Positions 12,958 through 34,973 of a stretch of 64,000 nt of DNA are shown here, piece by piece; position 1 is the first letter of the stretch; each line of letters begins with the position of its first letter. The DNA is from Puniceicoccaceae bacterium 5H (GTDB lineage: Bacteria; Verrucomicrobiota; Verrucomicrobiia; Opitutales; Oceanipulchritudinaceae), in NCBI GenBank assembly GCA_009772895.1, contig WOUP01000013.1, forward strand, positions 1 through 64,000. Direction: 5' to 3'. A program made the translations under genes and the position numbers. The notes under the pieces were generated by a model. It saw only the letters and a list, made by a program, of their open reading frames with translations. It was not told the DNA's origin and made no database searches.

Positions 12958-12983
12958 CAGAGAGAAAAAGCTCTCCTCGAGAC

Positions 12984-13652: not shown

Positions 13653-13823
13653 GAGAAGGCCTTCAACCTAGGCAGTTATACCCAGCAGAGGAACCCAATT
13701 TCCCGGCCACGCAGGGTTATCAAGGCAAGCCATACGCGGGATGGCATACAGTAGCGCCGCTAATGATCCATCGCGCTGGCAACCTGGGCCAGCACCGCGA
13801 TCGCAGTCTGCGAAGACAAAAAA

Positions 13824-13846
13824 ACGGAAGCCGCAATGGCTCCCGT
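13824..13846 (-). terminator. intrinsic terminator of PEP-CTERM gene 3
   Basis: ACGGAAGCC at 13824-13832 pairs with GGCTCCCGT at 13838-13846 and leads into T7 on the minus strand. It is a near copy of the terminator at 12935-12957, as is the sequence between hairpin and stop codon. Confidence 0.8.
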
Positions 13847-13872
13847 CAGAAAGAAAAAGCTCTCCTCAAGAC

Positions 13873-14544: not shown

Positions 14545-14658
14545 GAAGCGTTGTTTAAGCAATAATCCCCAGTAATATCGTCCAGAAGCGGAATCAATGG
14601 AAGCCATTTTGTGCAACCGACGCTATTTGCCACGCGCGATCCCAGCGTCAGGCCCCTG

Positions 14659-15315: not shown

Positions 15316-15480
15316 ATCTTTTGCGGGTTGTTTCACTCATGCTTTGTCTAATCGTCCTCGCAATCAACGCTAATCCGTTATGCGACTTATACTATTAGTT
15401 TACAAACGAACGGCGATTTTTTGAGCAAATCTAATCTGACACCCGCGTTTCGGCATGGTTGGCGTCATCTGGACGCAAAA

Positions 15481-15508
15481 CGCCCGCCCCCGAGATGGGA
15501 GGCGGGCG
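15481..15508 (-). terminator. intrinsic terminator of PEP-CTERM gene 5
   Basis: CGCCCGCC at 15481-15488 pairs with GGCGGGCG at 15501-15508. On the minus strand a TTTT run follows. It lies 22 bp after the stop of array member 5. Confidence 0.75.
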
Positions 15509-15530
15509 CGCAAAGTCCGTTGCAGCTTTT

Positions 15531-16190
15531 TTACGCCTGCTTGCGGCGGCGCAGGGCGATGAGGCCGAGCGCAGCGAGGCCACCCAAGGCGGCGTAAGTC
15601 GAAGGCTCGGGCACCACGGTATAGACGTAGTCCGCGGTGTTGGAATTGGAGTCCACAAAGGTGAAGCTGTTACCGATCAGGTCCGTCCAACTCGGATCCT
15701 CAAAGTCGGACTGCACGACCGAATCGCCGGTTTGCGGCGACTCGGAAATCAGCCCTGCCACCGCATAGTGGGTAAACATGAAAGTCCCCCCATCGGTGTA
15801 GGCCGTCGTCGGCGGCCCGTCGGTGTTGGTGGTATCGACCGCCGGGTAAATCAGCGGCTGCGTTTCCATATTAGCAAACAGCGCGTAGTTCGTGCCTGCC
15901 GCGTCAAAAAGATCGTAGGTGCCGTTGTAAGCACCGGAACTGCCCGCGATGGTCACCGAAACGCTGTCCCAGACAAGGCTCGTATAGGAGACGCCATAGA
16001 CGGAGGTATCGCTATAGGTCGATTGCGTGCTCGCGAAGTTGAAGGTCCACTTGGAGCCATCGAGGCCAAAGGGATCGAGGTCGCTGGCCGAGAGCACAAA
16101 TTCGTAATCGAGCACCACCTGGGGTGAGATCGCATGGGCCTGGGACACGGCACCGGCGAGTAGTGAAAGCGCAAACAGAGAAGACTTCAT
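15531..16190 (-). CDS. PEP-CTERM sorting-domain protein (array member 5)
   Basis: A 219-aa exported protein with signal peptide MKSSLFALSLLAGAVSQAHA, a body with VSVTIAGSSGAYNGTYDLF, and the anchor VPEPSTYAALGG, helix, LRRRKQA. The terminal KQA instead of RRA and the S for T in the anchor mark it, with member 6, as a slightly different subgroup. The early segment DPFGLDGSKWTFNF has close counterparts in members 3 and 6 (GxxSxWxFxF), so the start of the mature domain is conserved across the array. The gene has its own promoter region and terminator. Confidence 0.88.
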   Translation of the reverse strand: MKSSLFALSLLAGAVSQAHAISPQVVLDYEFVLSASDLDPFGLDGSKWTFNFASTQSTYSDTSVYGVSYTSLVWDSVSVTIAGSSGAYNGTYDLFDAAGTNYALFANMETQPLIYPAVDTTNTDGPPTTAYTDGGTFMFTHYAVAGLISESPQTGDSVVQSDFEDPSWTDLIGNSFTFVDSNSNTADYVYTVVPEPSTYAALGGLAALGLIALRRRKQA

Positions 16191-16312
16191 TATATACAGG
16201 GTTGAGACGTGAGTGTGCGACTGCCCGGAGACGTTTCGGGCGTTACTGTCCTACGAAAGACGTCCGTTTGGAGCAAAACTTTACCGGTTTGTGGCACGAA
16301 ATGTAAAAAAAA

Positions 16313-16340
16313 CGCCCGCCTCCGGTGCAGGAAGCGGGCG
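16313..16340 (-). terminator. intrinsic terminator of PEP-CTERM gene 6
   Basis: CGCCCGC at 16313-16319 pairs with GCGGGCG at 16334-16340 and leads into T8 on the minus strand. It has the same loop as the ydbL terminator at 17154-17182. Confidence 0.8.
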
Positions 16341-16360
16341 CTGAAAATCCTGGATTCGCC

Positions 16361-17017
16361 TTATGCGCGGCGGCGACGCAAGGCGATGAGGCCGAGCGCA
16401 GCGAGGCCACCAAAGGCGGCGTAGGTCGAGGGCTCGGGCACCGTACCGCCCGCATCCAAGGCCACCGCGGCCCAGTTGTACTGGATCTGCCCGCTGCTAC
16501 CGTCAATCGTCATAACGGTGCCGAAATCATAGTCATTGCCACCGTCCATCACGGCGCCTTCGAAATCGGCGGTGGAAACGACGTCGCCCGGTAAAATCGT
16601 GGTCGTATTCGGTGCACCAATGAAGTCGCTGCCCACGAAGGTGTAGTTTTCGCCGATGGCAAAAGAAGGCGGGCCGAACTCATTGCTCGCGAAGGCCACA
16701 TATATTCCAGCCTCCCAACCCGGCGTCCCGAGAAACGGACCGTTCGGATCTACCAGCGAATAGGTGCCGTTGATATCTCCAGTCGAGCCCGTGATCGTCA
16801 GCGTTGCCGTATCATACTCCAGCATGGGAATATTCGCCGCCGCAGGAGCCGTATAAGTATCCTGAGAGGCATAGAGGCTGAAAGCCCAGCTGGAGCCATC
16901 GATGCCATACGGATCGGTGTCGACCGCCGTGGGCTCGATCGTGAATTCAACCGTGATCGCCGCGGAGGCTGAAAAAGCCGGCAGCAGCAGTAGCAGACAG
17001 AGAAAACGTGACTTCTC
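16361..17017 (-). CDS. PEP-CTERM sorting-domain protein (array member 6), start codon missing
   Basis: The frame is open from a TAG at 17033-17035 to the stop at 16361. It encodes a signal-peptide-like segment (KSRFLCLLLLLPAFSASAA), the body motif ATLTITGSTGDINGTYSLV and the anchor VPEPSTYAAFGG with RRRRA, about 218 aa in all. By comparison with member 5 (ATG-AAG-TCT) the initiator should lie where GAG is read at 17015-17017. No ATG, GTG or TTG occurs in frame before residue 64, and only CTG codons are available near the signal peptide. It may be a recent start-loss pseudogene, use CTG, or contain a sequencing error. Confidence 0.7.
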   Translation of the reverse strand, partial: EKSRFLCLLLLLPAFSASAAITVEFTIEPTAVDTDPYGIDGSSWAFSLYASQDTYTAPAAANIPMLEYDTATLTITGSTGDINGTYSLVDPNGPFLGTPGWEAGIYVAFASNEFGPPSFAIGENYTFVGSDFIGAPNTTTILPGDVVSTADFEGAVMDGGNDYDFGTVMTIDGSSGQIQYNWAAVALDAGGTVPEPSTYAAFGGLAALGLIALRRRRA

Positions 17018-21018: not shown

Positions 21019-21810
21019 TCAGTGCTGACTGTTTTCGTTTGCTTCCGGTTTCGGGAGCGGGGCCGGTGCGCTGGGCATGGAGAAAAACGAGCGGACAATG
21101 CCCGGGTTGGCCTCCACTTCCTCCACTTCCATCAACGACTTGCGCTGACCGCCCTTGACCGTCTCGATCTTGTGAGGCAGCCAGATACCGGACACCTGAC
21201 CGTAGTTGCTCAGGAAGGTCACCTGCTCTTCCGTTTCGCCCGCCTCGTTGGTCGTGTATTCGATGTTCTTGGCTTCGCGCATGGTGCGGGAGTCGATGTA
21301 AAAGACGGTGCGCTTGTCCCCGTGGGTCTGCTCGATCCGGTAGTAATCGACGCGACCGATGCGCTCCGGTTCCAGCAATTTGCGGGTCTCACCCGGGCGC
21401 ATCTTGCCGATCAGCGGGCCGTCGAAGTCGATACCGTCGATAAACTCCTGGGCCTCCTCGCCGGTGACGCGTTCCGTCTTGCGGCCCTGCGCGGTGTCGA
21501 CCTGGCGCCAGACCGTCTCGCCGTCATAGCCGAGCGTCACCTTCACCTTGTCGCGGCTGTAGGTGATGATCTTGAGGTTGGGCCGTCGCTTGATCAGCAC
21601 GAGGTCGTAGTCGTCCTCGCCCATCTGAAACGTGCCGATCACACGCAGGGCGTTGATCGCATCCATGCTTTTCTGACCGCCGCTGGCCTCCACGTAGCGC
21701 TGCAGCACCGAATCGAGGTCCTCCAGCAGGCGCTGAGCATGAGCCGAAGCAAGCGAAAGACCGAAGGCCAGCAGGCCGCAGAGCCAGAATCGAAGAGTGG
21801 GCCGCGTCAT
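21019..21810 (-). CDS. LolA-fold outer-membrane lipoprotein-sorting-like protein
   Basis: A 263-aa exported protein starting at the ATG at 21810 (signal peptide ending at AHAQ). The body has the LolA/LolB/MucB-type pattern: VLQRYVEASGG, then LRVIGTFQMGEDDYDL, RRPNLKIITY, and TLGYDGETVWRQV, that is, a half-barrel that binds acyl chains. Proteins of this type carry lipoproteins or other lipids through the periplasm. It sits 12 bp upstream of ydbH and would be first in the envelope operon, so a role in the same lipid-traffic process is plausible. The exact cargo is unknown. Confidence 0.75.
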   Translation of the reverse strand: MTRPTLRFWLCGLLAFGLSLASAHAQRLLEDLDSVLQRYVEASGGQKSMDAINALRVIGTFQMGEDDYDLVLIKRRPNLKIITYSRDKVKVTLGYDGETVWRQVDTAQGRKTERVTGEEAQEFIDGIDFDGPLIGKMRPGETRKLLEPERIGRVDYYRIEQTHGDKRTVFYIDSRTMREAKNIEYTTNEAGETEEQVTFLSNYGQVSGIWLPHKIETVKGGQRKSLMEVEEVEANPGIVRSFFSMPSAPAPLPKPEANENSQH

Positions 21811-21868
21811 ACGGTCCAGCGTGACCGAAATCACCGCATTTTCAACGAAATAGCTCCGCGGCCGCAAC

Positions 21869-23965
21869 TCAGCCCTGCCGCAGGTGCAGGTGGAGCGTGC
21901 ACCGGGCTGTGCCCGGCTGGTTGATACGCAGCCAGACGTCTTCGCTGGCCGACACGGGCCAAGGCGTTGCCACCGTCACCCGCCGCCATCCGGGCGTACT
22001 GAGATCCAGCGTGCCCCAGCGCGCCGCATCCCCCTCCGAACCCACCTCCAGCTGTTCGCCCGAGGCGCCGGCCGACGTGACCTCCGCCCAGATTTCGACC
22101 ACCGCCCAACCGGCGGGCAACCGCGTGAGCCAGGTCTCACCGGCGTCGGTCGCAATCGCATCCCCTTGCCACAGGCTGCGCTCGATCCGCAACGCACCCG
22201 GCGCCACCGCCTGCAGGTGTTGCGGCTCGCCGCCCCGGATCGCCCAATCGCCACCCGCAAAGCCTGCGCAAGGCACGCGGCTCGCCCCGCCGGCTCCCAG
22301 CTCGACGCGCGCCGTGACGCCCTGCTCGACCAGTAACAGGTCGTCCAGCCACAAGGTGTTGCGCCGCCAGGGCTCGACACTGAAGATCGCCGCGAGGGAC
22401 GACACCACCCCGGAGGGCACGACAAAGTCGAGCGTGCCGGCAGCCCAATCGCTGCGCAGTGCCAGCAAACGGCTCGCCATGGAGGTGAAGTTGCCGGCCT
22501 CTTCCCGCAGGAGCAAGCGAACGGTGTCGGGCCCCGAGGCATGGTAGCGGTAATGGAAGCGCAGGGGATGCCCCCGTAGCAGGTTCAGGCTGGCCGACTG
22601 GTAGATCAACGCGTTGATGCCGGACCCGTTGGGACGATCGATGCGCAGGCCGATGCTGTCTCCGTACCCTTCTCCGCTGACGAAGTCCACCCCGACACCA
22701 CTGGAGGCCGTGATGCTCCAACCCGCACCGCCGGCCTCGAAGGCGCTGTTGGCGAGCAGGTTGACGCCCGGGGTCAACGCCTGCAGCGCCCAGCGTTCGG
22801 GGCGGACCGCCAAGGCCGTGATCTCCACTGCCGAGAGTGTGTGATTGAGCACCATCAGACGGTCGTAGAGGCAGCCGGACAGCGCTTCGCCGGACAGCAA
22901 GCGCGCGGGCTCGTCGTTGTCGTTCCCTAGATCGACCGCCGGAATGCCGCTCAGGTCGAGCGCCGCCAGCAACACGCCATCGAGGTAGATCGCAAGTTGC
23001 TGCTCCGGCACGATGTTGAGCACCACATCGTAGACGCGTCCGTCCAGCAGGCCCGGCGCGGGCAGCGTCACCGCCTGCTCCACGCCATCGCGCGCCGTCC
23101 AGACAAAGCGCCAATCGCCGCCCGCCTGTACCTCCCAGCGCCAGCGGGCATGGCCGCTCGCGTGCGTGGCCAGCAACACGGCATCGCTGCCCGGGGTCCA
23201 GGTATCCAGCGCCAGGCACAGGCGTACCGATCCGCTGCCGACGCCCCAACGGAAGCACTCGGAGGCCCCCTCCAGATATTGATCGGTGCCGAGGTAGATG
23301 CCGCCGCCCGGCCCCACGCGCGCGGCCTGCCAAGCCTCGTGCGCCACGGCGTCGAGCGCGGCGCGGGCCGCGGCCGGATCGGGCAGATCCTGCAGATTCT
23401 GCGCTGCCTGCAGGTAGAGCGTCTCCCCCTCCGTGCGGGTGACGAAACGGGCGTCGGCCTCGGCCTTGCTGTAGGCGCTGCCGGTCACGACCGGCGCAAT
23501 GCCGCCGCTGGCGTAGCCGTCGCTGTGGACCTCCAGCGGTCCGGCCCCGAAGGTCAGCTGCTCGGCCGGGTTGTTCTCCGTCGTGGCTGTGGCGATGAGC
23601 CAATACGTGCCCGGCTCGAGCTGCGTTTCGTCGCCGTTGAACGAGAAGACGAGGTGCGCGTCGGTCTGCTCGGTCCACTCGGTATCGGTCACCTCGCGGT
23701 CGGCCACCTCTTGGGTGCGGGTGAGGTAGACGGCGTCGTCCCACGACGGCACGGAGCGGTCCTCGGGCTGGCGCTTGAGCGTGAGGGTAAATGTGGCGAG
23801 GCGGTTGATATCGACCAGCTCGCCGTGGTCGAAAAGCCCGAGCTGGAAGTCGACGTCGCGACCGCTCCAGAGGGCAGGGATGCCCGCGCGCAAGACATCT
23901 TGCGGGGGCTCGAAAGAGCTGGCGTCGAGCGCCAGGCGGATGAGGTGTCGGGTGAAACTGGACAT
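21869..23965 (-). CDS. phage tail-fibre-like protein with LamG and carbohydrate-binding-like domains
   Basis: A 698-aa protein starting at the ATG at 23965. Residues about 1-160 form a beta-rich head of the kind found at the base of phage fibres. Residues 164-208 contain fibre-repeat motifs (YSKAEADARFV, LQDLPDPAAARAAL). Residues about 235-390 look like a LamG/concanavalin sandwich (YLDGVLLAALD, YDRLMVLNHTLSAVE). The last 300 residues hold two beta-sandwich-like modules reminiscent of carbohydrate-binding domains (LLANSAFEAGGAGWSI). It is the last gene of the phage module and probably the host-binding component, although no tail genes exist to mount it on. Confidence 0.7.
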   Translation of the reverse strand: MSSFTRHLIRLALDASSFEPPQDVLRAGIPALWSGRDVDFQLGLFDHGELVDINRLATFTLTLKRQPEDRSVPSWDDAVYLTRTQEVADREVTDTEWTEQTDAHLVFSFNGDETQLEPGTYWLIATATTENNPAEQLTFGAGPLEVHSDGYASGGIAPVVTGSAYSKAEADARFVTRTEGETLYLQAAQNLQDLPDPAAARAALDAVAHEAWQAARVGPGGGIYLGTDQYLEGASECFRWGVGSGSVRLCLALDTWTPGSDAVLLATHASGHARWRWEVQAGGDWRFVWTARDGVEQAVTLPAPGLLDGRVYDVVLNIVPEQQLAIYLDGVLLAALDLSGIPAVDLGNDNDEPARLLSGEALSGCLYDRLMVLNHTLSAVEITALAVRPERWALQALTPGVNLLANSAFEAGGAGWSITASSGVGVDFVSGEGYGDSIGLRIDRPNGSGINALIYQSASLNLLRGHPLRFHYRYHASGPDTVRLLLREEAGNFTSMASRLLALRSDWAAGTLDFVVPSGVVSSLAAIFSVEPWRRNTLWLDDLLLVEQGVTARVELGAGGASRVPCAGFAGGDWAIRGGEPQHLQAVAPGALRIERSLWQGDAIATDAGETWLTRLPAGWAVVEIWAEVTSAGASGEQLEVGSEGDAARWGTLDLSTPGWRRVTVATPWPVSASEDVWLRINQPGTARCTLHLHLRQG

Positions 23966-23979
23966 GAATGGAATGCAGG

Positions 23980-24420
23980 TTAAACGGCGTAGCCGAGGGT
24001 GAGCGCGTAGCGCAGGACTTCCTCGCGCCAGGCCGCCGGGGCCTCGACCTCCGGCACGGCGCGTGGGGTGAACGGATGGGGGCGCAGGGCCTCGGGCGCA
24101 CCGGGCGGCTGCCACCCTGCCAGCCGAGCGGCGAGCGCGCTGGCCAGCTGGCCCTGGGCGTTGCGCCGCGGACGATGCCAGAGGCTCTCGCGCAGGCGCA
24201 CGGTCACCTCCAGCAGACGTTCGCCGGTATAGTCGACGGTCAGGTGGCCGGGGCCCTCGACCTGCACCAGCAAGTCGGTCGCGCCGGCGAGCTGGGCCTC
24301 GAGTTCGCCCTCCAGATCGGTGGCATCGGCCAGCCACAGGTGCACGCCGCGCAGCTCCGGCAACGTACGCAAGTAGTCCCGCACCTGATGGCCCAGGCGA
24401 TAGTCTTCAAAAACAGGCAT
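23980..24420 (-). CDS. phage connector-type protein (Mu gp37-like)
   Basis: A 146-aa protein with no signal peptide. The opening FEDYRLGHQVRDYLRTLPELRGVHLWLAD (quoted in parts: GHQVRDYL, LRGVHLWLAD) and the central LLVQVEGPGHLTVDY fit the small alpha/beta neck or tail-terminator type proteins that follow the gp36-like gene in Mu-like phages. The gene order (capsid, gp36-like, this) supports the call; sequence alone is weak. It is 12 bp downstream of the gp36-like gene and 14 bp upstream of the fibre gene. Confidence 0.5.
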   Translation of the reverse strand: MPVFEDYRLGHQVRDYLRTLPELRGVHLWLADATDLEGELEAQLAGATDLLVQVEGPGHLTVDYTGERLLEVTVRLRESLWHRPRRNAQGQLASALAARLAGWQPPGAPEALRPHPFTPRAVPEVEAPAAWREEVLRYALTLGYAV

Positions 24421-24432
24421 GACGGTGGCGGG

Positions 24433-24882
24433 CTAGATGCGCAGGCGTTGGGCGGTCACCCGGTGGGGCCGCAGCGACAGAACGACGGTTTCGGCGCCCC
24501 AGACGGGCGGCGGCTCTTCGGGGTCGGCCGGAGGCTCGGCCCGCAGCTTGCCATTGGCAAAACGCTCGAGCAGCGCGCGGGCTTCGTCGGCCGCCCGGAC
24601 TTGGGCGGTCGTCAGCTCCAGGCTCGGCAGGCGCGTCTGGGCCGCTTCGAGCACGAGGGCCGCAGCCGGGCCGTGCAACTCGGGCGGCAACGCCATCGGC
24701 TCGGCGCTCAAGACACCGCCGCCAGCCCGCAACTCCGCCCGCACCCGCGCCGTGAGGTCGGCCACGATCTCGGGGATCGGGTCGGCCTGTTCATCGGCCA
24801 GGGCGGCCGTCTGCAGCGCCCGCAGCTGCGGGGCAGCCAGGTAACGTTGTAGGGTTAGGGGAGATAAAGGACTCCAGGACAT
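24433..24882 (-). CDS. phage protein gp36-like (DUF1320-type head completion protein)
   Basis: A 149-aa protein. The N-terminal half (LQRYLAAPQLRALQTAALAD, then DPIPEIVADLTARVRAEL) matches the helical pattern of Mu gp36/DUF1320 proteins, which act at the head-tail joint. The second half is Ala/Glu-rich with a Pro-rich linker (PPADPEEPPPVW). It follows the capsid gene, as in Mu-type head clusters. No Shine-Dalgarno precedes the ATG at 24882; the bases before it are pyrimidine-rich. Confidence 0.55.
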   Translation of the reverse strand: MSWSPLSPLTLQRYLAAPQLRALQTAALADEQADPIPEIVADLTARVRAELRAGGGVLSAEPMALPPELHGPAAALVLEAAQTRLPSLELTTAQVRAADEARALLERFANGKLRAEPPADPEEPPPVWGAETVVLSLRPHRVTAQRLRI

Positions 24883-24945
24883 GATGGAAAAAGGGAAGAG
24901 GGCGCGGCCCGCGATGGACCGCGCCCGGGTTGAAGGGTGAAGGGT

Positions 24946-25878
24946 TTAGGCGCTGATGGTGAGGTGGCGCAGGCCGTCGGGGTTGGTCAGCACGACCTGC
25001 GAATAGTGCTCGACACTGATGTCGGTGTATTTGGCGTGCTCTTCCACGTAGACCCGGAACGGGTGACCGTCCTCGGTGGGCGTGTAGAAGCGCTTGAGCG
25101 TGCTGGGCTCATCGCGGTGCAGGCCGTTGCGCCCATAGAACAGGTAGATGCTGTTCTCGAGCATGGCCCGCAGGCGTTCGCCGTCGTGGTGGAAGGGCGA
25201 GAACAGCCGCAGCTCCTCCACGAACAGTTTGCGCGCCAGTTCCTCCGGGCCGAAGCTGCCGACGCGGACGGCCGCGACCGATTCCTGCCCGTCGTAGGCG
25301 TTCTGACGCTGGTCCCACGCCGCCGGCGCCCACAGCATGCGGTTGGGGCGCAGGCCGGTGTCCTGGGCGGCAAAGCTCAGCTCCGCGCGCAGGTCCGCAT
25401 CGGGGTTGGCCCCGGGGCTCCAAACCTGCGGGCTCGGGGTCGAAGCATCCTCCATCGCGGCCAGGGCCCGGCGCAGCTCGTTGCGCAAGAGGCGTTGTAC
25501 CAACAGGCCCACGTAGCGCTCCCGCCAGTCCGGCCCCACCTCCTCGTCGTGGTCGACGCGGATGGTCAGGCCCTTGTTGAGGGTCTTGCTCTGCACGGCG
25601 TCGCCCGTGTAGCCGACGCGCTTGAAGCTGCCGCCGATCGCCCGCACGTCGTCGTCCTCCGAATAAAAGAACTCGGACGGCGTGGAGCGGCGGAACTCGA
25701 AGCGGCGCGCCACCGGCACGGGCGGCGCCACGAAATCGAGCAGGCCCTGCAGGTTTTGCGGGTCCTTCCAACCCGCGGAATAGGCCGTCAGCGGCTCGCT
25801 GAGGTGCGCGTGCTGGAAGCGGCTCTCGTTGGCAAAGGTGATGCTGCCCTTGGGCAGGGTCGTTTCAGTCGTATTCAT
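24946..25878 (-). CDS. phage major capsid protein (Mu-like head cluster)
   Basis: A 310-aa protein from the ATG at 25878. It has no signal peptide. The length is near that of the Mu major head protein, and the position after protease/scaffold and decoration genes is the standard one. Segments such as FVAPPVPVARRFEFRRST, TLNKGLTIRVDHDEEVG and WRERYVGLLVQRLLRNELRRAL (the last trimmed here to LVQRLLRNEL) fit a capsid fold with a long spine helix. The identification rests mainly on gene order and size. Confidence 0.65.
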   Translation of the reverse strand: MNTTETTLPKGSITFANESRFQHAHLSEPLTAYSAGWKDPQNLQGLLDFVAPPVPVARRFEFRRSTPSEFFYSEDDDVRAIGGSFKRVGYTGDAVQSKTLNKGLTIRVDHDEEVGPDWRERYVGLLVQRLLRNELRRALAAMEDASTPSPQVWSPGANPDADLRAELSFAAQDTGLRPNRMLWAPAAWDQRQNAYDGQESVAAVRVGSFGPEELARKLFVEELRLFSPFHHDGERLRAMLENSIYLFYGRNGLHRDEPSTLKRFYTPTEDGHPFRVYVEEHAKYTDISVEHYSQVVLTNPDGLRHLTISA

Positions 25879-25919
25879 TTGTGTATCTGAGACTTGGAAG
25901 TGAAGGGAGATGGGTGGAA

Positions 25920-26345
25920 CTAGACGGTGCGGGCCTGCGGGAAGCAGGGATCGAAACCGACGGGCTGACCGGCGGAAGCCGCCTGCAGCGCGCGCCCGAT
26001 CACGTGGTAGGTGCCGCTCGCGGTCGGCAGCTTGCGGACCGTGCCATCGGCCGCCGGCACGAGCAGATCGCCCTCCGCGATGTTGGCCGCCGCTACCGCG
26101 CAAAGCGTGCGGTTGGCGGAGCCGAGGAGGGTGACGTTGATCGGCGCGCCCGCGTCCTCGGCATCGTCCTGCGCCACGCCGAGCGGCAGGTCGTTGGCGC
26201 CGCAGAGTGCGACGGTGCGCGCGGAGCCCGCGGGCTGCACGAGGCGATGACGGGCATTGAGCGCGCCATTGGCGAAGCGAGTGAGATCACCGGCGGCAAA
26301 TTCGCCGGCCACGGAATTGGCAAAGATCGTGTTCATGGATTGCAT
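25920..26345 (-). CDS. phage head decoration-type protein
   Basis: A 141-aa protein of short beta-strands (ARTVALCGANDLPLGVAQDD, INVTLLGSANRTL, IAEGDLLVPAADGTVRKLP). The pattern of an activity-free beta-barrel with GDLLVPAADGTV is shared by DUF2190-type capsid cement proteins. It lies between the protease/scaffold gene and the capsid gene, the usual place for this function. There are two possible starts: M1 at 26345 or M4 nine bases in. No function other than capsid stabilisation is suggested. Confidence 0.6.
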   Translation of the reverse strand: MQSMNTIFANSVAGEFAAGDLTRFANGALNARHRLVQPAGSARTVALCGANDLPLGVAQDDAEDAGAPINVTLLGSANRTLCAVAAANIAEGDLLVPAADGTVRKLPTASGTYHVIGRALQAASAGQPVGFDPCFPQARTV

Positions 26346-26392
26346 GTCGTTATGTGTGTCGTTGATGGTGAAAAAGTTGTGTCAGGGGCGCT

Positions 26393-27412
26393 CTAGGCAG
26401 GGCGCAGGGCGCTCCAGGCGGTCTGGAAATCCTCGCCCGTTTCGGCCATGCGGCTGTTGACCGCCTCCAGCAGTTGTCGCGAGGGGCTTTGAGTGGACGT
26501 GCGCTGCCCGAGCCCCGCCGTGCGGGCGGTTGTCTTGAGCACGCGGTCGCGGCCCATCAGCTGGGCATTCGCTGCCGCCGGATCGGCCTCGAGGGCCTCG
26601 CGCCAGGATGCGGCCTCCGCCGGTTGCAGGCGGCCTTCGCGCAGGGCGTGGTCGAGCAAGGTGTCGACGTGGGTCGTCTGCTGTTGCGCCAGCGCGGTCT
26701 CGAGCTCGCGCACCCGCCGCTCTGCCTGTTCGCGCGCCGTATGGGCGTCCTCGGCCAAGCGAAACCAGCGGTCCGTATCGGTAGGCGCGGTGTCGTTGGC
26801 CGCCACGGACTCCAGCCGCTGTTCCAGGGCTTCGAGCAAACCGTCGGCGTCTTCCGCCGGCACTTCCAGGCGCTCGGCCACCGCCGCCAGCGTCGTCGCA
26901 GCCAATTCCAGCGACTGCCCCACCCCGGCGACCTCGCCTGGGTCTTCCGCCGGCGCGGCATTGGCCACGGGCTCGCCGAGGATGTTGGGGGTATTGGTCA
27001 GCCCGACCGAAAGCAGCCGCACGGGCCGGTAAACGTCCGCCTCGACCGGCTCCATCAGCCAGCGCGGCGAGAGGTATTTGTAGTGTGCCTCGGTCAACAA
27101 ATCGCGACCGCTGCGAGCCCATTTGACGCGCATGTAGAGGCCGTCGTCGCAGACTTCGAGCCCGTGGACCCAGCCGTGAGCGCGGGTGTCGTCGTGTCCG
27201 GCGCGGCCGGTGAACTCGGCATCGTCCGGATGGCCCACGTAGACCGGCAGGCCGCCGAAGCGCCGGGCCAGGCGTCCCTTCAGCGAGTAGAAATCCTCCA
27301 CCAGCGCCTGGGCTGCCGCGCGGTCGAAGCGCTGACGCCCCTTCCGGTGCGGGTGCTCGCCGAACGCCACCAGCTTGTAGCGCTCAAAAGTGTTATTATG
27401 TTCACTATTCAT
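26393..27412 (-). CDS. phage protease/scaffold protein (Mu gpI-like)
   Basis: A 339-aa protein. The N-terminal third (FGEHPHRKGRQRFDRAAAQ, GGLPVYVGHPDDAEFTGRAG given in part as PVYVGHPDD, then YKYLSPRW) matches the Mu gpI prohead protease. The helical, Glu/Ala/Gln-rich C-terminal two thirds fit the scaffold portion (GpZ), which in Mu is translated separately from within the same gene. In Mu the protease matures the capsid by cleaving scaffold. The gene lies between portal and decoration genes, as expected. Confidence 0.75.
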   Translation of the reverse strand: MNSEHNNTFERYKLVAFGEHPHRKGRQRFDRAAAQALVEDFYSLKGRLARRFGGLPVYVGHPDDAEFTGRAGHDDTRAHGWVHGLEVCDDGLYMRVKWARSGRDLLTEAHYKYLSPRWLMEPVEADVYRPVRLLSVGLTNTPNILGEPVANAAPAEDPGEVAGVGQSLELAATTLAAVAERLEVPAEDADGLLEALEQRLESVAANDTAPTDTDRWFRLAEDAHTAREQAERRVRELETALAQQQTTHVDTLLDHALREGRLQPAEAASWREALEADPAAANAQLMGRDRVLKTTARTAGLGQRTSTQSPSRQLLEAVNSRMAETGEDFQTAWSALRPA

Positions 27413-27530
27413 CGAATAAAAAAAAGCAGAAGTTAAAATGAATTAAAGGGTGAGATCCTGGGGCTGGGAGCGCATGGGGCGTTTTTATCTTTAGCCGTAA
27501 AAGGCGCGGGATTCACAAAAGAAGAACAGG

Positions 27531-28739
27531 TCAGCCTCGCGACTGCGCGCCCTTGGCGTCGCCGATCAGGGCGGTTTCTTCGGTCGGTTCGGCGAGGTGG
27601 AAGCGCTCGCGAAAATCGTGGGCACTGAGTGGGATGCCCATCTCCCAGGCGAGGCGGTAGACCTGCAGGTCGCGCTCCGGCTGGGTCGTGCGGCCGGCAC
27701 GGACTTCGATCGTCGCGCGCGGCTCCTCGTCGAAGAGGGAGCGTAACAACGGTCGGTTGACCTGCGTCTGCAGGACCTCGGAAACCAGTTGCGCATCGCT
27801 CTCGGCCAGCAAGTCGGATTCCTCTTGCTGCAGGCTCGCGCCGACGCCCGCACCCCGGCTGATCGTGCCCAGATCGGCCCCGCGCCAGAGCACCACCATC
27901 GCGCGGTCCATGCGCTCGACGAGCTGGGGATACGGCAGCGTGCCGCTCGTCTCCATGTGAATCGCCTCCAGCTCCGTGCCCCGCCCCATCAGCGCGTGAA
28001 ACTCCGCGCCGAAGCTCTCTACCGCCTCGCGCGCCGCCTCCCATTCGGCCGAGCCGGGAGGCGCGTCGGTCGTGCCCTTGATGCCCGGCATGCCGTTGCG
28101 CTCGCAGTAGACGAGCCAGTCGCGCAGCGGCAGCGACTTGAAGAGGTAGGCGATGCTGCAGGCCTCCATCACGCCGGGCCCGACGGTGATCATCCAGCCG
28201 TTTTGCTCCAGCGCGCGCCCCTCCAGGGCGTGCTCCTGCTCCAGGAAGCGCAGGCGGCCGGTGCGGTTTTCGAAGAACCAGAGTGGCACGAAGCGAAACT
28301 CGGCCGTCATGCCGTCCGGCGTGGGTTGCCAGACCAGTTCGTGCACGGCGTAGCGCTTGCCGATGGCGTCGAGCATCTGCCGCACGAGCAACTGAAAGCC
28401 GCCGCGCTCGTTCTCGTCCAGCGCGTTGACGGCGGTCAGCTGACGGTAAAACGCGGTCAGCGCCTCCTGGTGGCGCCGCGCCGTGGGGGAGTCCTCGGTG
28501 GTCAGGATCTCCCAACCGTGGCGGGCTGCCGCGGCCTTGCGCTTTGCCGCGACCGATTGCACGACGTCGTCGCGGCGCTCGATCGCCTCCCAAGTCAGGG
28601 CTGCGCCCCGCAGATCGCCGGCGTGAAAGGCATCGAGTTGACGGGCGAGGCTCTCCGGCGAGAGCTGCCGCACGGCGCTGAAACGGGTGCGTTGTTGCGC
28701 TTCCCGCCAGCGGGTCGAAGAAAAAATAGTGGTTTTCAT
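27531..28739 (-). CDS. phage portal protein (DUF935, Mu gp29-like)
   Basis: A 402-aa portal-type protein. Recognisable parts are LTWEAIERRDDVVQSVAAKR (the entry segment of DUF935), KRYAVHELVWQP, FVPLWFFENRTGRLRF and KGTTDAPPGSAEWEA. The portal ring is the channel for DNA entry and the motor dock. It is shorter than Mu gp29 (about 510 aa) but ends in a plausible helical tail (HDFRERFHLAEPTEE). It lies directly downstream of the large terminase gene on the same strand, after a 196-bp spacer. Confidence 0.8.
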   Translation of the reverse strand: MKTTIFSSTRWREAQQRTRFSAVRQLSPESLARQLDAFHAGDLRGAALTWEAIERRDDVVQSVAAKRKAAAARHGWEILTTEDSPTARRHQEALTAFYRQLTAVNALDENERGGFQLLVRQMLDAIGKRYAVHELVWQPTPDGMTAEFRFVPLWFFENRTGRLRFLEQEHALEGRALEQNGWMITVGPGVMEACSIAYLFKSLPLRDWLVYCERNGMPGIKGTTDAPPGSAEWEAAREAVESFGAEFHALMGRGTELEAIHMETSGTLPYPQLVERMDRAMVVLWRGADLGTISRGAGVGASLQQEESDLLAESDAQLVSEVLQTQVNRPLLRSLFDEEPRATIEVRAGRTTQPERDLQVYRLAWEMGIPLSAHDFRERFHLAEPTEETALIGDAKGAQSRG

Positions 28740-28935
28740 AAAGTCGATCGAGTTGAACGTAAGGTCTTGGAAGCGGCGTGCAGAGTCGCGCCAGCAAAGG
28801 ATCGCCGTGACGAACGTAGAGTCGCAAAGACGCCAAAGGGTATAGAAGGTGTTATGAAAAGTTATGATGAACCTGGCGACGACGCCTGCGTTTCGTCTCA
28901 GGACAGGGCATCCGCTGGACGGTGTGTGCTCCAGA

Positions 28936-30285
28936 TCAAGGGTGGCGTTTGATCACGTGGACTTCGGGGGAGTGGCGGTTGGCTTGTTGGGCGGCGTGCA
29001 GGGCCAGGGCGAGTGCCCAGAAGCGGTCGCTGTGGCCGCTGGAGTCGCGGCGGGCGACGAAGCGGGGATGGCCGGCGCTGGTCTGCTCCTGGCGCACGGC
29101 CCGCAGGTCGGCGCGGATGGCGTCGTCTTCGGGCAGGCGCAGGCGGCGTTCTTCCAGGGCGCTGCGCAGTGGGTAGGCCAACGTCTCCTGCACCGGCAGG
29201 CTCAGCTGCAGGCCTTCGACGCGGTAGCGCCCGTAGCGTTCTGCCGCGCGCTCGGCGAACTGGCGGCCCAGGCCCGTGGCGTCGATGCAGCACCGGCGAA
29301 ATTCCGGGCGCCGCAGCAGCGCGTCGAGCACTTGCTCCTGCCGCGAAAAGGTCTCGCCGGAGAGCACTTCCACGTGCCGCGTGACCAACAGGTCGCCGAT
29401 CGGCTCAAGCGCCCAGATGACCGTGCGGTCGTGCACGCGCCCAACGTCGACGCCTACATAGAGCGAGCGTGCAGGCTCGGCAAAGGCGCTCGTGGCGGGA
29501 TCGTGGGCGGTCGGCTGGAGCAATCCGGACACCTCGCAGGCCACGAGGTCGCTGAACGAGAGGAAGGCCGCGGCATCTTCCGCCGGCACGCAACAGTATT
29601 CCTGCAGCCAGCTCTCCTCGTCGGGGCAGCGCGTCCGCACGTAGTCGAGGTAATCGTCGGGCGCGAGGTGCTTGCGCGGGTCGTCCTCCGGCAGGCGCGG
29701 CTGCAAGCGCTCGAGCAGGCCCTGCTGCACGGCGTCCTGCAGCGTCACCCGGTGCAGCGAAAAGCCCTTGGGGTTGCCGTCCTCGCGCGCCTCCTTCACC
29801 AGCTGATGGAAAAAATTGGCGCTGCCGCGGTGGGTCGAGATCAGCTCCAGACCACCGCCCCAGGTGACGCCTGGGTAGGCGATGCGGTAGAGCCGCTCGG
29901 GCTCGGGGTGCAGGGCAAACTCGTCGAGCACGCGGGTGCCGCGCTTGCCGGCCTGCGCATCGGGGTTGGAGCTGAGGCAGTGCACGCGGCGGCCATTGGC
30001 CAGCACCAACGTCTGCCGCGTGCTGCCCCGCCCGAGCACCTTGCCACCGAGGCGACGCGCCACGCGGTCGAGCCCGCGGGCAAAACCGAGGCAGTCTTCG
30101 AGAAAAAGGCGGGCCTGAACCGCGTCGCGGCTGCTGACCCACGCGTCGTAGCGCATACCCGGCCGACTGAGTCGCGAGACCAGCCGGTAGGCCGTAGCCC
30201 ACGACATGCCGACCTGGCGGGACTTCTCCATCAGCTTCAGCGGGGAGGGATCCTCGATCCAGCGGCGTTGATACGGTAAAAACAT
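28936..30285 (-). CDS. phage terminase large subunit (Mu gp28-like)
   Basis: A 449-aa DNA-packaging motor. The ATPase half shows a deviant Walker A (KSRQVGMSW at residues 21-29) and a Walker B RVLDEFAL (118-125). The RuvC-type nuclease half has YVGVDVGRVHD (D280), CCIDATGLG (D335) and HSDRFWALALAL near residue 425. All catalytic acidic residues are present, so the motor looks intact. It is somewhat shorter than Mu gp28. Two inverted-repeat elements flank the small terminase gene just upstream. Confidence 0.87.
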   Translation of the reverse strand: MFLPYQRRWIEDPSPLKLMEKSRQVGMSWATAYRLVSRLSRPGMRYDAWVSSRDAVQARLFLEDCLGFARGLDRVARRLGGKVLGRGSTRQTLVLANGRRVHCLSSNPDAQAGKRGTRVLDEFALHPEPERLYRIAYPGVTWGGGLELISTHRGSANFFHQLVKEAREDGNPKGFSLHRVTLQDAVQQGLLERLQPRLPEDDPRKHLAPDDYLDYVRTRCPDEESWLQEYCCVPAEDAAAFLSFSDLVACEVSGLLQPTAHDPATSAFAEPARSLYVGVDVGRVHDRTVIWALEPIGDLLVTRHVEVLSGETFSRQEQVLDALLRRPEFRRCCIDATGLGRQFAERAAERYGRYRVEGLQLSLPVQETLAYPLRSALEERRLRLPEDDAIRADLRAVRQEQTSAGHPRFVARRDSSGHSDRFWALALALHAAQQANRHSPEVHVIKRHP

Positions 30286-30305
30286 GGAAATAAAGCAATG
30301 GGTTC

Positions 30306-30380
30306 AACAGAAGGGCACAAAGCGCACGAAGTCGTTTTAGAATCGCAGCCTGGTCTGGGCGTTCTCCGTGCCCTTCTGTT
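30306..30380. repeat. inverted-repeat element A
   Basis: A 75-bp intergenic element bounded by perfect 13-bp inverted arms: AACAGAAGGGCAC at 30306-30318 and its complement at 30368-30380. The left arm continues with a segment (ACAAAGCGCACGAAG) shared with element B 400 bp away. It separates the large and small terminase genes. Confidence 0.75.
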
Positions 30381-30398
30381 ATGAATAAGCGATCAAGA

Positions 30399-30710
30399 TC
30401 AACCCAGCTCGGCTTCGATTTGCCGTAGCAGTTCGGGCGTGAGGCCTTCGGTCGGCGATTCGTCCTGGGTGCCGGCTTGCGATTCTTTCAAGAGCATCGC
30501 GCGGCGTTGGTTGGTGCTGGCGCAGAGGCGCTGAACGGAGGTCACGAGCTTGTCGATGCCCTCGTCGTCGCCGCGCTGCAGGCGCTCAAACAGAAGCTGC
30601 CAGGCCAGAACCAGGGCCGCTTCGGGTAATACATCACGTGCGCCGTAGCGTTCGAGGATCGCCTCCGCCTGTTCGCGCACATGGTCGATGGAAGAAAGGG
30701 GTAAAGACAT
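30399..30710 (-). CDS. small phage protein, probable terminase small subunit
   Basis: A 103-aa helical protein (VREQAEAILERYGARD, ALVLAWQLLFERLQRGD, GIDKLVTSVQRLCAS) ending in the acidic segment TPELLRQIEAEL. No clear DNA-binding motif is visible. The call rests on its place immediately upstream of the large terminase, and on the helical make-up and a tail resembling terminase-interaction segments of small subunits. It is shorter than the Mu small terminase (about 180 aa). Confidence 0.5.
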   Translation of the reverse strand: MSLPLSSIDHVREQAEAILERYGARDVLPEAALVLAWQLLFERLQRGDDEGIDKLVTSVQRLCASTNQRRAMLLKESQAGTQDESPTEGLTPELLRQIEAELG

Positions 30711-30728
30711 GGAAAATGAAGAAAGTTT

Positions 30729-30862
30729 GAACAGAAGGACACCAAGCGCACGAAGCGGCTTCTACCCGCAACGGGAAAGGCTCACTGCACCCACACCTGG
30801 ATCTCCACTAATGCTAGGCACAACATCGAACCCTTCTTCGTTCACTTTGTGTTCTTCTGTTC
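30729..30862. repeat. inverted-repeat element B
   Basis: A 134-bp intergenic element with 27-bp inverted arms (30729-30755 and 30836-30862) that match at 23 of 27 positions. Its left arm is nearly the same as that of element A. It could form a long hairpin or be a non-autonomous mobile element. It has no coding capacity. Confidence 0.78.
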
Positions 30863-30869
30863 CATTATG

Positions 30870-31187
30870 CTAATGTTTCACGGAGAGCATCTCCATTTGC
30901 GCGATGAGCGCGGCGATGTGCTCGCTGTTCTTGCGGATGAGGTCGTAGACGCCGCCGAGGCTCTGGCTGCGCTTGTTGTCCAGCTCGGTCAGGTCGTGCT
31001 GGGTGTCGCGGCGCAACTGGTGCACCTCGTTGCGCAGGCGTTCGAGGTCCTGGCGGGTGGCGTAGGTCAGCTTCGGATCGGGCGACTCCCGTTGCAGCGC
31101 GTGGATGCGCAGGATGAGGTAGTAGGCCGAGAGCAGCGCGAGCGCGCCGGAAGCGATGAGGCCGAATTGGGTTGCCGAAAGGTCCAT
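30870..31187 (-). CDS. small membrane-anchored coiled-coil protein of the phage module
   Basis: A 105-aa protein: one N-terminal membrane helix (FGLIASGALALLSAYYLIL) followed by a coiled-coil-like region (TRQDLERLRNEVHQLRRDTQ, LTELDNKRSQ). In Mu-like phages small proteins of this build lie between the lysis genes and the terminase genes (for example DUF2730-type proteins or spanin-like products). It lies 22 bp downstream of the holin-like gene. A lysis-related or packaging-accessory role is possible but not shown. Confidence 0.55.
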   Translation of the reverse strand: MDLSATQFGLIASGALALLSAYYLILRIHALQRESPDPKLTYATRQDLERLRNEVHQLRRDTQHDLTELDNKRSQSLGGVYDLIRKNSEHIAALIAQMEMLSVKH

Positions 31188-31209
31188 GGTGATCAGGGGG
31201 TGCCGAGGG

Positions 31210-31653
31210 TTAACGCTTGGTCAGCGAGCCGCCGAAGTAGAGGCCGACGATTGCGCTGAGCAGGTGCGTATCGAGCGGGGTGATGACGAGGCCCGTGAGG
31301 CTGTGCCAGAGCACTTTTTCGCGACCGTCGCCAAAGCCGAGAAAGCCGCCGCTCCACTCGCTGTAGCCAATGTGCACGGCCACTTGCGGAGCGAAGACCG
31401 CCACCAGCTTGGGGAAGGCGATGATGAAAAACACCGCCAGCAGCGCGATCGTGCGCCGCGTCCAGGCAAAGCCCGCGTTGTCGCAGGCTCGGGCCTCGGA
31501 GATGATCGAGGCCTCCGCGTTGAGCGCCTGCAGAAAGTAGGTGCGCTCGCGGCTGCGGGCCTCCATGGCCCGGGACGAGATTTGCATGATGCCACCGATC
31601 AGGGACGAGCCCAGCAGGGTCACCAGTTCGAGGGGAAAGGATGGTAAAGCCAT
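31210..31653 (-). CDS. holin-like membrane protein, first gene of the phage module
   Basis: A 147-aa protein with three likely membrane segments: near residues 8-25 (LVTLLGSSLIGGIMQI), 68-92 (IALLAVFFIIAFPKLVAVFA) and 120-142. A charged segment (RAMEARSRERTYFLQAL) lies between the first two. This layout fits three-helix holins of the gene-transfer-agent/Mu-like kind. No endolysin or peptidoglycan hydrolase is found next to it. It is the upstream-most gene of the co-oriented module. Confidence 0.5.
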   Translation of the reverse strand: MALPSFPLELVTLLGSSLIGGIMQISSRAMEARSRERTYFLQALNAEASIISEARACDNAGFAWTRRTIALLAVFFIIAFPKLVAVFAPQVAVHIGYSEWSGGFLGFGDGREKVLWHSLTGLVITPLDTHLLSAIVGLYFGGSLTKR

Positions 31654-31891: not shown

Positions 31892-32656
31892 ATGCAACGC
31901 CTTTTCACCCTCGCCCTCTGCCTGTGTGCCGGCTTGATGGCCACGACGGCCACCGCCGCCGAGCACGCGCAAAAGATCCTCATCGTGGTGACCAATCACG
32001 GCAAACTCGGCGATACCGGAGAGCCCACCGGCTATTACCTCAGCGAAGTGGCGCACCCGTGGCACGTCTTCCGCGAGGCTGGCTATACGGTGGACTTCGC
32101 CAGCCCGAAGGGCGGTTTCGCGCCGATGGACCCGCGCAGCTTCGACCTCGAGGACGCCACCAACCGCACGTTTTGGGAGACGCTCGAGGCTGTGCAGGCC
32201 CTCGCGCAGACCAAAAAGCTGGGCGAGATCGACCCGCAAAATTACGCCGCGATCTTTTTCGCCGGCGGGCACGGCACAATGTGGGACTTCCCCAGCGAAT
32301 CGGTGGGCAAGAAGCTGATGGCCTTTTACGGCAAGGACAAGCCCATCGGCGCGGTCTGCCACGGCCCGGCCGCCCTGCTCTTCGCCCGCCACGACGACGG
32401 CACGCTGTTGATCGACGGGCGCAAGGTCGGCGGCTTCACCAACGAGGAGGAAAAAGCCGTGGGCCTGCAGCAGGCCGTGCCCTTCCTGCTCGAAAGCAAG
32501 CTGAAGGAAGGCGGCGCGGACTTCCGCCAGAGCGGCAAGTTCGAGCAACACGTATCCGTCAGTGGCCATCTGGTGACGGGTCAGAACCCCGCCTCGGCCA
32601 CCGCGGCAGCCGAGGAGATCGTGCGCCTGCTGCAGGGCCAGGGTCATCGCTCCTGA
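31892..32656 (+). CDS. exported DJ-1/PfpI-family (class I glutamine amidotransferase-like) protein
   Basis: A 254-aa protein starting at the ATG at 31892. It has an N-terminal signal peptide ending at ATAAE, so it should be periplasmic. The DJ-1 fold is shown by the nucleophile elbow AVCHGPAAL (C156, H157), FFAGGHGTMWD upstream and an acidic E44 in TGEPTGYYL. These are features of the Hsp31/glyoxalase III branch. Activity could be deglycase, glyoxalase or protease-like; the sequence does not decide. Export of this family is less common than cytoplasmic forms. Confidence 0.82.
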   Translation: MQRLFTLALCLCAGLMATTATAAEHAQKILIVVTNHGKLGDTGEPTGYYLSEVAHPWHVFREAGYTVDFASPKGGFAPMDPRSFDLEDATNRTFWETLEAVQALAQTKKLGEIDPQNYAAIFFAGGHGTMWDFPSESVGKKLMAFYGKDKPIGAVCHGPAALLFARHDDGTLLIDGRKVGGFTNEEEKAVGLQQAVPFLLESKLKEGGADFRQSGKFEQHVSVSGHLVTGQNPASATAAAEEIVRLLQGQGHRS

Positions 32657-33325: not shown

Positions 33326-33361
33326 AGCGCTCACCGTTCTCACGACGGGAGCGCTTTTTTT
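33326..33361 (+). terminator. intrinsic terminator after sufT
   Basis: AGCGCTC at 33326-33332 pairs with GAGCGCT at 33349-33355, and the loop contains an additional CCGT/ACGG pair. A run of T (33355-33361) follows. It overlaps the end of the converging ATPase gene by two bases. Confidence 0.85.
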
Positions 33362-34802
33362 ATTCGAGGGTGTGGTGATGGAGTTCGGATCTGCCTAGCC
33401 AATAGCAGGCCAGAGGAGCCGGAATCTTCGCCAGCACAGTCTCTGACATTTTCGGTTTGAGGAGGCCAAAATCACGGATATCGCGTGTAATCACATAGCC
33501 TCGATCGATCTCCTTCTCCTGGCAAAACTCCTGGATCCCCTGCAGCTGGCGCAGACCGGTCTGGTCAGGCCCGCGGAATTTCACTTCGAAGGGCACCATG
33601 CGACTGCCGCTCTCGGCAATCACATCCACCTCCTTGTTCTTTTTGCCCCGCCAATAAGAAAAGCGCATGCTCGAGCTGTAGTAGCGCGTATAAACATGCT
33701 TGAAAAACGCTGTTTCTACCGCTCGCGCCACCGCATCCGTATCTTCAAGCAGGCTTTTTCCCTTCAGCAATACGCTCCCGGCCAGAGCTGCATCGGCCAG
33801 ATATATCTTCGGTTTGGCCCGTAAAATCTGCTTGCCATATCCATGAGGCAAGAGGCGGTAAATCAGGTGCGACGATTCGAGTAAACCGATAAAGTTGTTG
33901 GCGGTTGGCTTCTTGACCTCCAGCGCCTTACACAGTTCTTGCATATCAAGTAGTCCGCCATCGTGAAGGCACAGATATAGAAAGACCTGCTCCAGCTCGA
34001 GCACACGCCTCACCCCAAAAAAAGCCGTCATGTCCCTCTTGAGGACTTTCTCCACGATATCTTCGCGGAGAAGCTTCTGCGCCTGAACGATGCTCTCGAC
34101 CTTCGCGCTTTGCGGAAACCCCCCGCGCAAAAGATACTCGTTGAACAAGCCCACCAATGGCACCGCGGCTTCAGCTGTCCGGATAAAAGCGGCCTCATCC
34201 CAAGCAAAAAGCTGCTTTAAACTACCGACCTCCGGCAGTTCCGGCACATCCGCTTGCCGTATTTGGAGGTATTCAAAGAAAGACAGCGTCGCCAGCTTGA
34301 TCGTTTGCCAACGCCCGACTCCCGACTCTTGAGCCGCGGTTTCCAGCGGCGTTGCGGATCCCGTGATCGCGATCCGCCTGCTCTTGTCGAAGTCCACTTG
34401 ATGCTTCAGCCATACCTGCCAATCCTTGATCGTCTGGATCTCGTCCAGAAAGAGGTACTGGGGTCCCTCTACCCGTGGCTCGAATTCGCGCCAGATTTCG
34501 ATCAGCCGATCCAAGCCGATCAACTTGAGCAAGGGGTGGTCGAACGTGGCGTAAAGGATATTGGACGGTGGCACGCCCTGCTCCAGCAAGCGGGAGATCG
34601 CTTGCAGAAAGAGCGTCGTCTTCCCCACTTGCCTGGCTCCCGAAAGCAAAAGAGCCCGCCCGGCTGGCGGTTCCTCCATCCACGCTTCGATTTCGCGAAA
34701 CGCAGCCCGCTTCCAGGTCGGCAGCCACTCGATGGGCGCGTGCGTCCACCAAGGATTGTACTGCCGCAAAACCGCAAAAAGTTCCTGCTTGGAAGCTATC
34801 AT
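33360..34802 (-). CDS. AAA-type ATPase with DUF4143 domain
   Basis: A 480-aa protein from the ATG at 34802. The AAA_14 ATPase domain has a Walker A GARQVGKTT (residues 55-63), a Walker B YLFLDE (116-121) and a sensor-like ITGSATPLE. The C-terminal DUF4143 part contains YWRGKKNKEVDVIAE, a nuclease-like E-V-D pattern followed by PFEVKFRG. These standalone ATPases are spread by horizontal transfer; their role is unknown, with suggestions of DNA-related or defence functions. Its upstream region (34803-34900) is strongly AT-rich compared with the rest of the window and has an operator-like palindrome. Confidence 0.85.
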   Translation of the reverse strand: MIASKQELFAVLRQYNPWWTHAPIEWLPTWKRAAFREIEAWMEEPPAGRALLLSGARQVGKTTLFLQAISRLLEQGVPPSNILYATFDHPLLKLIGLDRLIEIWREFEPRVEGPQYLFLDEIQTIKDWQVWLKHQVDFDKSRRIAITGSATPLETAAQESGVGRWQTIKLATLSFFEYLQIRQADVPELPEVGSLKQLFAWDEAAFIRTAEAAVPLVGLFNEYLLRGGFPQSAKVESIVQAQKLLREDIVEKVLKRDMTAFFGVRRVLELEQVFLYLCLHDGGLLDMQELCKALEVKKPTANNFIGLLESSHLIYRLLPHGYGKQILRAKPKIYLADAALAGSVLLKGKSLLEDTDAVARAVETAFFKHVYTRYYSSSMRFSYWRGKKNKEVDVIAESGSRMVPFEVKFRGPDQTGLRQLQGIQEFCQEKEIDRGYVITRDIRDFGLLKPKMSETVLAKIPAPLACYWLGRSELHHHTLE

Positions 34803-34826
34803 CAGATTAAGATGCCAAAAATATAA

Positions 34827-34854
34827 ATTTAAGTAAAGTATATTTACCTTAAAT
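34827..34854. promoter_or_regulatory. AT-rich palindrome upstream of the DUF4143 ATPase gene
   Basis: ATTTAAGTAAA at 34827-34837 is an imperfect inverted copy of TTTACCTTAAAT at 34843-34854. It lies 25 bp before the ATG of the ATPase gene, in the most AT-rich stretch of the window. It may be an operator or part of the promoter. Confidence 0.45.
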
Positions 34855-34973
34855 CTCATTTTTAGGATTATTCTCAAGAAAACGGGTCCAATTATACTTA
34901 TCTCCTCTGAGCCCCAAGCCGCGCCTTTTTGCTAGCCGGGGGCGGTAGCGCGGGGTTAGGCTAGGGACCGTAT

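Follow-up and report, generated by a model that had tools for sequence, protein, structure and literature searches.

A vertically inherited head and DNA-packaging gene cluster of Opitutales, probably encoding a domesticated, gene-transfer-agent-like particle

Introduction

Why would a bacterial lineage keep an intact set of phage head and DNA-packaging genes at a locus that has no recognisable tail or mobility genes? This question is raised by a cluster at positions 21869-31653 (minus strand) of a 64,000-nucleotide stretch of contig WOUP01000013.1 from Puniceicoccaceae bacterium 5H; the whole stretch is referred to as the window. With a probability of roughly two in three, we consider the cluster to be a domesticated DNA-packaging particle ("viriform") of Opitutales that resembles gene transfer agents (GTAs), was micro-tailed ancestrally and is tail-less in the window lineage. 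The reading is built on gene content, the pattern of gene loss, vertical descent, purifying selection and a truncated small terminase.

Gene content of the cluster

The eleven genes are listed below in the order of transcription, with lengths in amino acids (aa).

31210..31653, minus strand: holin-like membrane protein, first gene; open reading frame (ORF) of 147 aa, phrog_38283 (unknown function), homologues first in 17 loci
30870..31187, minus strand: protein with one transmembrane segment and a coiled coil; ORF of 105 aa, homologues at the equivalent position in 10 loci
30399..30710, minus strand: small terminase; 103 aa, missing the ~55-60 N-terminal residues seen in its counterparts from related phages
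28936..30285, minus strand: large terminase (TerL); 449 aa, Pfam Terminase_6N/6C, ATPase and nuclease motifs intact
27531..28739, minus strand: portal protein; 402 aa, Portal_Mu 6.9e-60
26393..27412, minus strand: head protease/scaffold of the Mu gpI type; 339 aa, Mu-like_Pro 1.6e-22, head protease phrog_328
25920..26345, minus strand: decoration/cement protein; 141 aa, Phage_cement_2 4e-7, scaffold-type phrog_673
24946..25878, minus strand: major capsid protein of the HK97/Mu type; 310 aa, weak match to phrog_1005
24433..24882, minus strand: head-tail connector-type protein in the gp36 position; 149 aa, family profile found in 69 loci
23980..24420, minus strand: divergent connector/terminator-like protein in the gp37 position; 146 aa, 70% to the same-genus genome G001 and 28% to the member on viral contig L131
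21869..23965, minus strand: fibre-like protein; 698 aa, homologous region in the fibres of relatives, no Pfam match

The original prediction of eleven co-oriented, undamaged genes holds, as all eleven minus-strand ORFs are present and none is broken. The ATPase and nuclease residues of the terminase are likewise intact: the motifs SRQVGMSWA, RVLDEF, GVDVGR, CIDATG and HSDRFWALAL occur in the window TerL and in essentially all members of its family. The description "Mu-like" fits the portal and protease, which match Mu-type profiles, but not TerL, which is B3-like (52% to Pseudomonas phage B3 versus 31% to Mu). The fibre gene exists, but its start has been corrected from 24337 to about 23965. 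The name holin-like derives only from membrane segments and membership in a family of unknown function (phrog_38283); the GTA holin family PF11351 had no match in the window genome, and the control genomes likewise had none. The capsid family profile matches PDB entry 3bjq, a solved phage-related protein (E=8e-4), and capsid identity across host families is 44-56%. The family in the gp36 position lies mostly directly 3' of the capsid gene among its 69 loci.

In line with what had been reported missing, the cluster has no tail tube, tape measure, hub, transposase or integrase. A profile search for tail tube and hub genes of the related type recovered none anywhere in the window's genome assembly, and no integrase, transposase, primase or repressor was recognised beside the cluster from ORFs and Pfam. 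A Mu-like transposable prophage would have a transposase and a full head and tail at one locus; here, host genes adjoin on both sides, as had also been noted, with a LolA-like gene on one and a DJ-1/PfpI gene on the other. An encapsulin would be an HK97-fold shell gene without portal or terminase, and this cluster keeps the portal and both terminases.

Distribution and descent

Related genomes were searched for the same cluster, as the original prediction had proposed, by running a capsid profile over 273 Opitutales genomes, and two score classes resulted. The high-score class, clearly above prophage-type copies, occurs as a single copy in each of about 76 of the 273 genomes, including 5/5 high-quality genomes of family f27 and 9/10 of family f21. 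The low-score class is patchy, sometimes multi-copy, and located in ordinary Mu-like prophages. When the capsid scan was widened to 85,000 species genomes, high-identity matches came from Opitutales/Puniceicoccales and other verrucomicrobial records alone. Carriers include many small-genome Puniceicoccales metagenome-assembled genomes (MAGs), which we take to be from termite-gut samples, rumen MAGs, isolate Marseille-Q1082, and Cerasicoccus frondis, maritimus and arenae; many carrier genomes are just 0.7-1.1 Mb. Family f4 (genome G045) was excluded from the inherited class, since its genes are scattered and its capsid groups with a phage.

A tree built from terminase, portal and capsid resolves each host family represented by more than one sample as a separate clade. 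The rpoB and cluster trees of the same 28 genomes have 20 of 25 splits in common (label permutation: mean 0.27, maximum 4), as well as 5/8 family-level splits (P=0.0002), and cluster distances correlate with rpoB distances (Mantel r=0.64, P=0.0001). Vertical inheritance with the host lineage, one of the criteria for GTAs, is seen here in the shared splits and the monophyletic families. The cluster is kept order-wide and has been for a very long time, mostly by parent-to-offspring descent. Synteny of the flanks is mostly not conserved between families, with agreement only between the window genome and G001 and between families f6 and f17; a partial likeness is the LolA-like neighbour near the clusters of f1 (the window's family), f5 and f21. 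Two viral-contig members, L131 and L133, fall within the inherited clade. L131, the best of the viral-contig matches, was rejected as evidence of a live phage: next to it lies an apparent leucyl-tRNA synthetase gene, and the contig is probably host DNA.

Selection

The original prediction had suggested dN/dS (omega) of terminase, portal and capsid as a check, and frame decay in close relatives as the sign of a simple prophage remnant. Relative to G001, omega is 0.08 for the portal, 0.09 for the large terminase and 0.20-0.37 for the remaining cluster genes recovered in that genome, and no stops occur; the G001 locus yielded no holin-like or coiled-coil gene. Between families, the medians of omega are 0.13 for the portal, 0.135 for the capsid, 0.20 for TerL and 0.11 for the hub, a tail protein kept in other lineages. 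Nearly all genes fall at 0.10-0.30, and the value of 0.5 for the small terminase is driven by f21. Omega is therefore well below 1 within the genus and across families, and the close relative shows no decay. Purifying selection on structural genes, as expected of a GTA, is visible in these pairwise values.

These values bear on the view, also offered originally, that the cluster is an early-stage remnant, i.e. a slowly decaying prophage whose head genes are not needed. Patchy occurrence within f1 and the stepwise, modular loss of tail genes fit that view. Intact frames and omega values that stay low from family to family, even in strongly reduced genomes, which discard useless DNA, speak against it, as does a gene order conserved over 11 families. 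The remnant view is very improbable.

Small terminase and packaging specificity

A model of phage small terminases was built from 34 phage sequences (180 positions). Whereas 27 phage proteins match this model from positions 1-9, the small terminases of the clusters match only from position 38 or later, mostly from at least 55, and often weakly; the window protein matches weakly and only from position 65 of 180. Its alignment to Mu Gp27 likewise starts only at profile position 56 and is weak, being stronger in the family members L131 and L028. Longer cluster small terminases have low-complexity N-termini in place of the phage region. From its position and sequence, the missing region would be the DNA-binding, helix-turn-helix domain. 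Loss of the N-terminal region of the small terminase has been proposed as a defining trait of GTAs (Sherlock et al., PMC6854486), and in a review the same trait is applied to all known GTAs (PMC11841831). That the Opitutales clusters have the same loss suggests convergent evolution of non-specific packaging.

Gene order and split loci

Profile searches over about 80 loci gave the layout of the family, which runs hol-cc-terS-terL-portal-protease-decoration-capsid-gp36-gp37-t134-fibre-hub-t192 with lineage-specific losses. The core order terS-terL-portal-protease-decoration-capsid-gp36 is conserved over 11 families. The t134, hub and t192 genes are missing from the clusters of f1, f5 and f21, and no tested genome of these three families has a hub gene. 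In f17, terL lies at a locus separate from the capsid operon: in genome G051 the portal is near 1,720,000 and terL near 96,000 of the same contig, 1.6 Mb apart. Because of this separation the parts cannot travel as one element, and self-packaging as one unit is impossible there.

The split loci bear on a tail-borrowing satellite, another of the original options, which like capsid-forming phage-inducible chromosomal islands (PICIs) would package its own DNA in its own heads and use the tails of a helper phage. The presence of head and packaging genes without tails is what such a satellite would have, and a Mu-like prophage on contig C24 of the same genome could in principle supply tails. Yet there is no integrase, transposase, primase or repressor beside the cluster, its descent is vertical, the close relative G001 lacks a second copy, terL and the capsid gene lie apart in f17, and the small terminase is without the N-terminal region expected for self-recognition. 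A satellite is accordingly rated as far-fetched as the remnant.

Tail loss compared with related phages

Related phages and prophages (L241, L238, L135 and L134) carry a MuF-like gene, a morphogenesis gene, a tail-tube-position protein of ~300 aa, t134, a fibre, a protein of ~450-650 aa in the tape-measure position, and then the hub. The inherited clusters instead run gp36-gp37-t134-fibre-hub. The ~300-aa "tail tube" is named by position and sequence look, with no match behind the name; its profile had zero matches in 36 of 40 genomes, and the remaining four, all of f17, carry full prophages. A DNA adenine methyltransferase-like ORF lies between gp36 and the MuF-like gene in L241 (11611-12441) and L238 (11569-12270).

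Profiles of hub and tube had no match among PDB sequences; the hub and t134 were identified by comparison of predicted structures. The predicted t134 has a tail-tube/Dit fold (VIA Z 9.3, rmsd 3.4, 126 residues), and the predicted hub resembles baseplate hubs of the gp27/Mu gp44 type (Z 21.5, rmsd 3.1, 302 residues). Most clusters have a coil of 40-57 residues immediately before the hub, ending for example in RINNLR or QIGNLR. This coiled-coil ORF of 40-57 aa is seen directly upstream of the hub in L025, L029, L031, L033, L038, L131 and other hub-bearing clusters. Phage proteins in the same position are 588-654 aa long and end in QIRNMR, QVRNMR or QIRSLT. The similar endings suggest that the coil is a tape measure reduced to the part next to the hub, possibly a miniature tape measure. 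The viral contigs L133 (8945-9790) and L132 (2010-2855) have an extra 281-aa ORF in the tail-tube position and no tape measure; this lineage, inside the inherited clade, could be an intermediate stage of tail loss.

Interpretation

Among the original options, a domesticated, GTA-like capsid is favoured by single-copy occurrence, agreement with host phylogeny over 11 families and the truncated small terminase. A proposed sequence of events starts with a long-tailed phage of the B3/Mu type, which would have been captured in an early member of Opitutales and would then have lost its tail tube, tape measure, and transposition and regulation genes. With the N-terminal region of the small terminase lost, packaging should start on any DNA and not at a phage pac site. 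The host would build proheads from capsid, decoration protein, protease/scaffold and portal, and the intact large terminase would fill them with random host DNA by headful action. The connector proteins would then close the portal, the fibre would decorate the particle, and release might occur by lysis or leakage via the holin-like gene, followed by transfer. Some lineages may have kept a one-ring micro-tail made of the tube-fold protein, the ~50-residue tape-measure remnant and the hub. The window lineage, without the micro-tail too, would make a DNA-filled, fibre-bearing, tail-less capsid.

A bolder version is held more tentatively, at somewhat below even odds: the family could be an order-wide GTA of independent B3/Mu-type origin, in which the long tail shrank to a one-ring micro-tail that retains ~50 residues of the tape measure, and in the window lineage disappeared, leaving a DNA-filled particle with no tail. 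If this is true, such a particle would release DNA, or have it taken up, by a route not known for GTAs.

Several observations weigh against a GTA-like particle of single origin. The role is read here from genes, and known GTAs are phage-like particles with an associated tail (PMC11841831); no tube or hub is found in the window genome, micro-tail genes occur in other lineages only, and delivery by the window particle is unexplained. GTAs of the RcGTA type have an energetically cheaper amino-acid composition than their viral homologues (PMC6821227). This signature was not seen in four same-genome pairs, where carbon per residue is slightly higher for portal and capsid and mixed for the others. 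The window's own family is patchy, with many genomes lacking the cluster. Between family means the distance correlation falls short of significance (r=0.30, P=0.13), support for monophyly of the inherited clade relative to phage L135 is modest (0.72), and capsid-only trees place phages L134 and L135 weakly inside that clade, which is not decisive. More than one capture of similar phages is possible. With no recognisable tail, unlike known GTAs, the window version may or may not belong to the GTA class; its packaging step would be GTA-like.

The main rival is a domesticated capsid with a role other than transfer, e.g. an intracellular container for DNA or protein, a means of DNA disposal at death or of phage interference, or a decoy. 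Such a role would suit a lineage without a recognisable delivery machine, retention by tiny-genome and probably symbiotic lineages, and the changed small terminase. Conserved portal and terminase catalytic motifs point instead to DNA packaging, and in several lineages hub and micro-tail parts persist under purifying selection. A cargo container, as originally suggested, is less likely because the packaging motor keeps its catalytic residues. Taken together, a non-transfer role is a serious but clearly less probable explanation than the domesticated, GTA-like packaging particle.

Neighbouring genes and other regions

Two host genes border the cluster outside the particle set.

21019..21834, minus strand: LolA-like gene; LolA_like 4e-6, just under the cut-off
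31892..32656, plus strand: DJ-1/PfpI family gene, divergently transcribed; Pfam

The LolA-like neighbour is also present at the G001 locus. Downstream of the cluster it is accompanied by a gene for a 1,054-aa protein that matches no Pfam family, and by a DUF1318 gene; on the upstream side, the DJ-1/PfpI gene is accompanied by iron-sulfur-assembly genes. An AAA_14/DUF4143 ATPase of lower G+C at 33360-34877, near the cluster, is possibly a recent arrival. At 12152-16825 of the window, about six paralogous genes for secreted proteins lie in tandem, and most of their products have a C-terminal VPEPTTYAAFGGLAALGLIAWRRRRA-type PEP-CTERM sorting signal. Elsewhere in the genome, contig C24 (14000-33999, L021) has a second Mu-like head cluster of the prophage type, with a full-length small terminase, a MuF-position gene, divergent early genes and a capsid of the low-score class.

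Significance

Outside Alphaproteobacteria only a few GTAs are known, and there is debate over the traits by which they can be recognised. The Opitutales family could provide an independent case with sister phages for comparison, in which stepwise tail loss is visible. Cultured carriers among Cerasicoccus species allow particles to be sought directly. Since termite-gut genomes of 0.7-1.1 Mb retain the cluster, one may ask whether genes are exchanged even among genomes commonly regarded as isolated. Annotations probably label many such clusters as "prophage remnants". In the open literature, with subscription literature outside the search, no GTA in Verrucomicrobiota and no tail-less GTA was found. 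The Opitutales MAG 'Ca. Marcellius' has been described as having Mu-like proteins and TerL but no integration or propagation genes, and was called a degraded prophage (PMC6920513); by this description, not by sequence, the region may be a member of the same family.

Comparison with known systems

Capsid-forming PICIs have their own head and packaging genes and no tail. They are, however, mobile integrating islands with an integrase, whereas the Opitutales cluster has no mobility genes recognised beside it and is vertically inherited. B3-like and Mu-like phages (Pseudomonas B3; verrucomicrobial L241, L238 and L135) are similar in their terminases, portal, protease, decoration protein, capsid, connectors and gene order, and related tube-fold and hub proteins occur in some inherited lineages. 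These phages differ in keeping a tail tube, a tape measure and a full-length small terminase, and they are patchy and can be multi-copy. GTAs (RcGTA of Rhodobacter capsulatus, BaGTA, Dd1, VSH-1 and VTA) share with the Opitutales cluster phage-derived head genes, vertical descent, purifying selection, a small terminase without its N-terminal DNA-recognition region, and genes sometimes spread over several loci. The Opitutales cluster, known from its genes alone, differs from them in its Mu/B3-type ancestor, its phylum and its micro-tail or lack of any tail.

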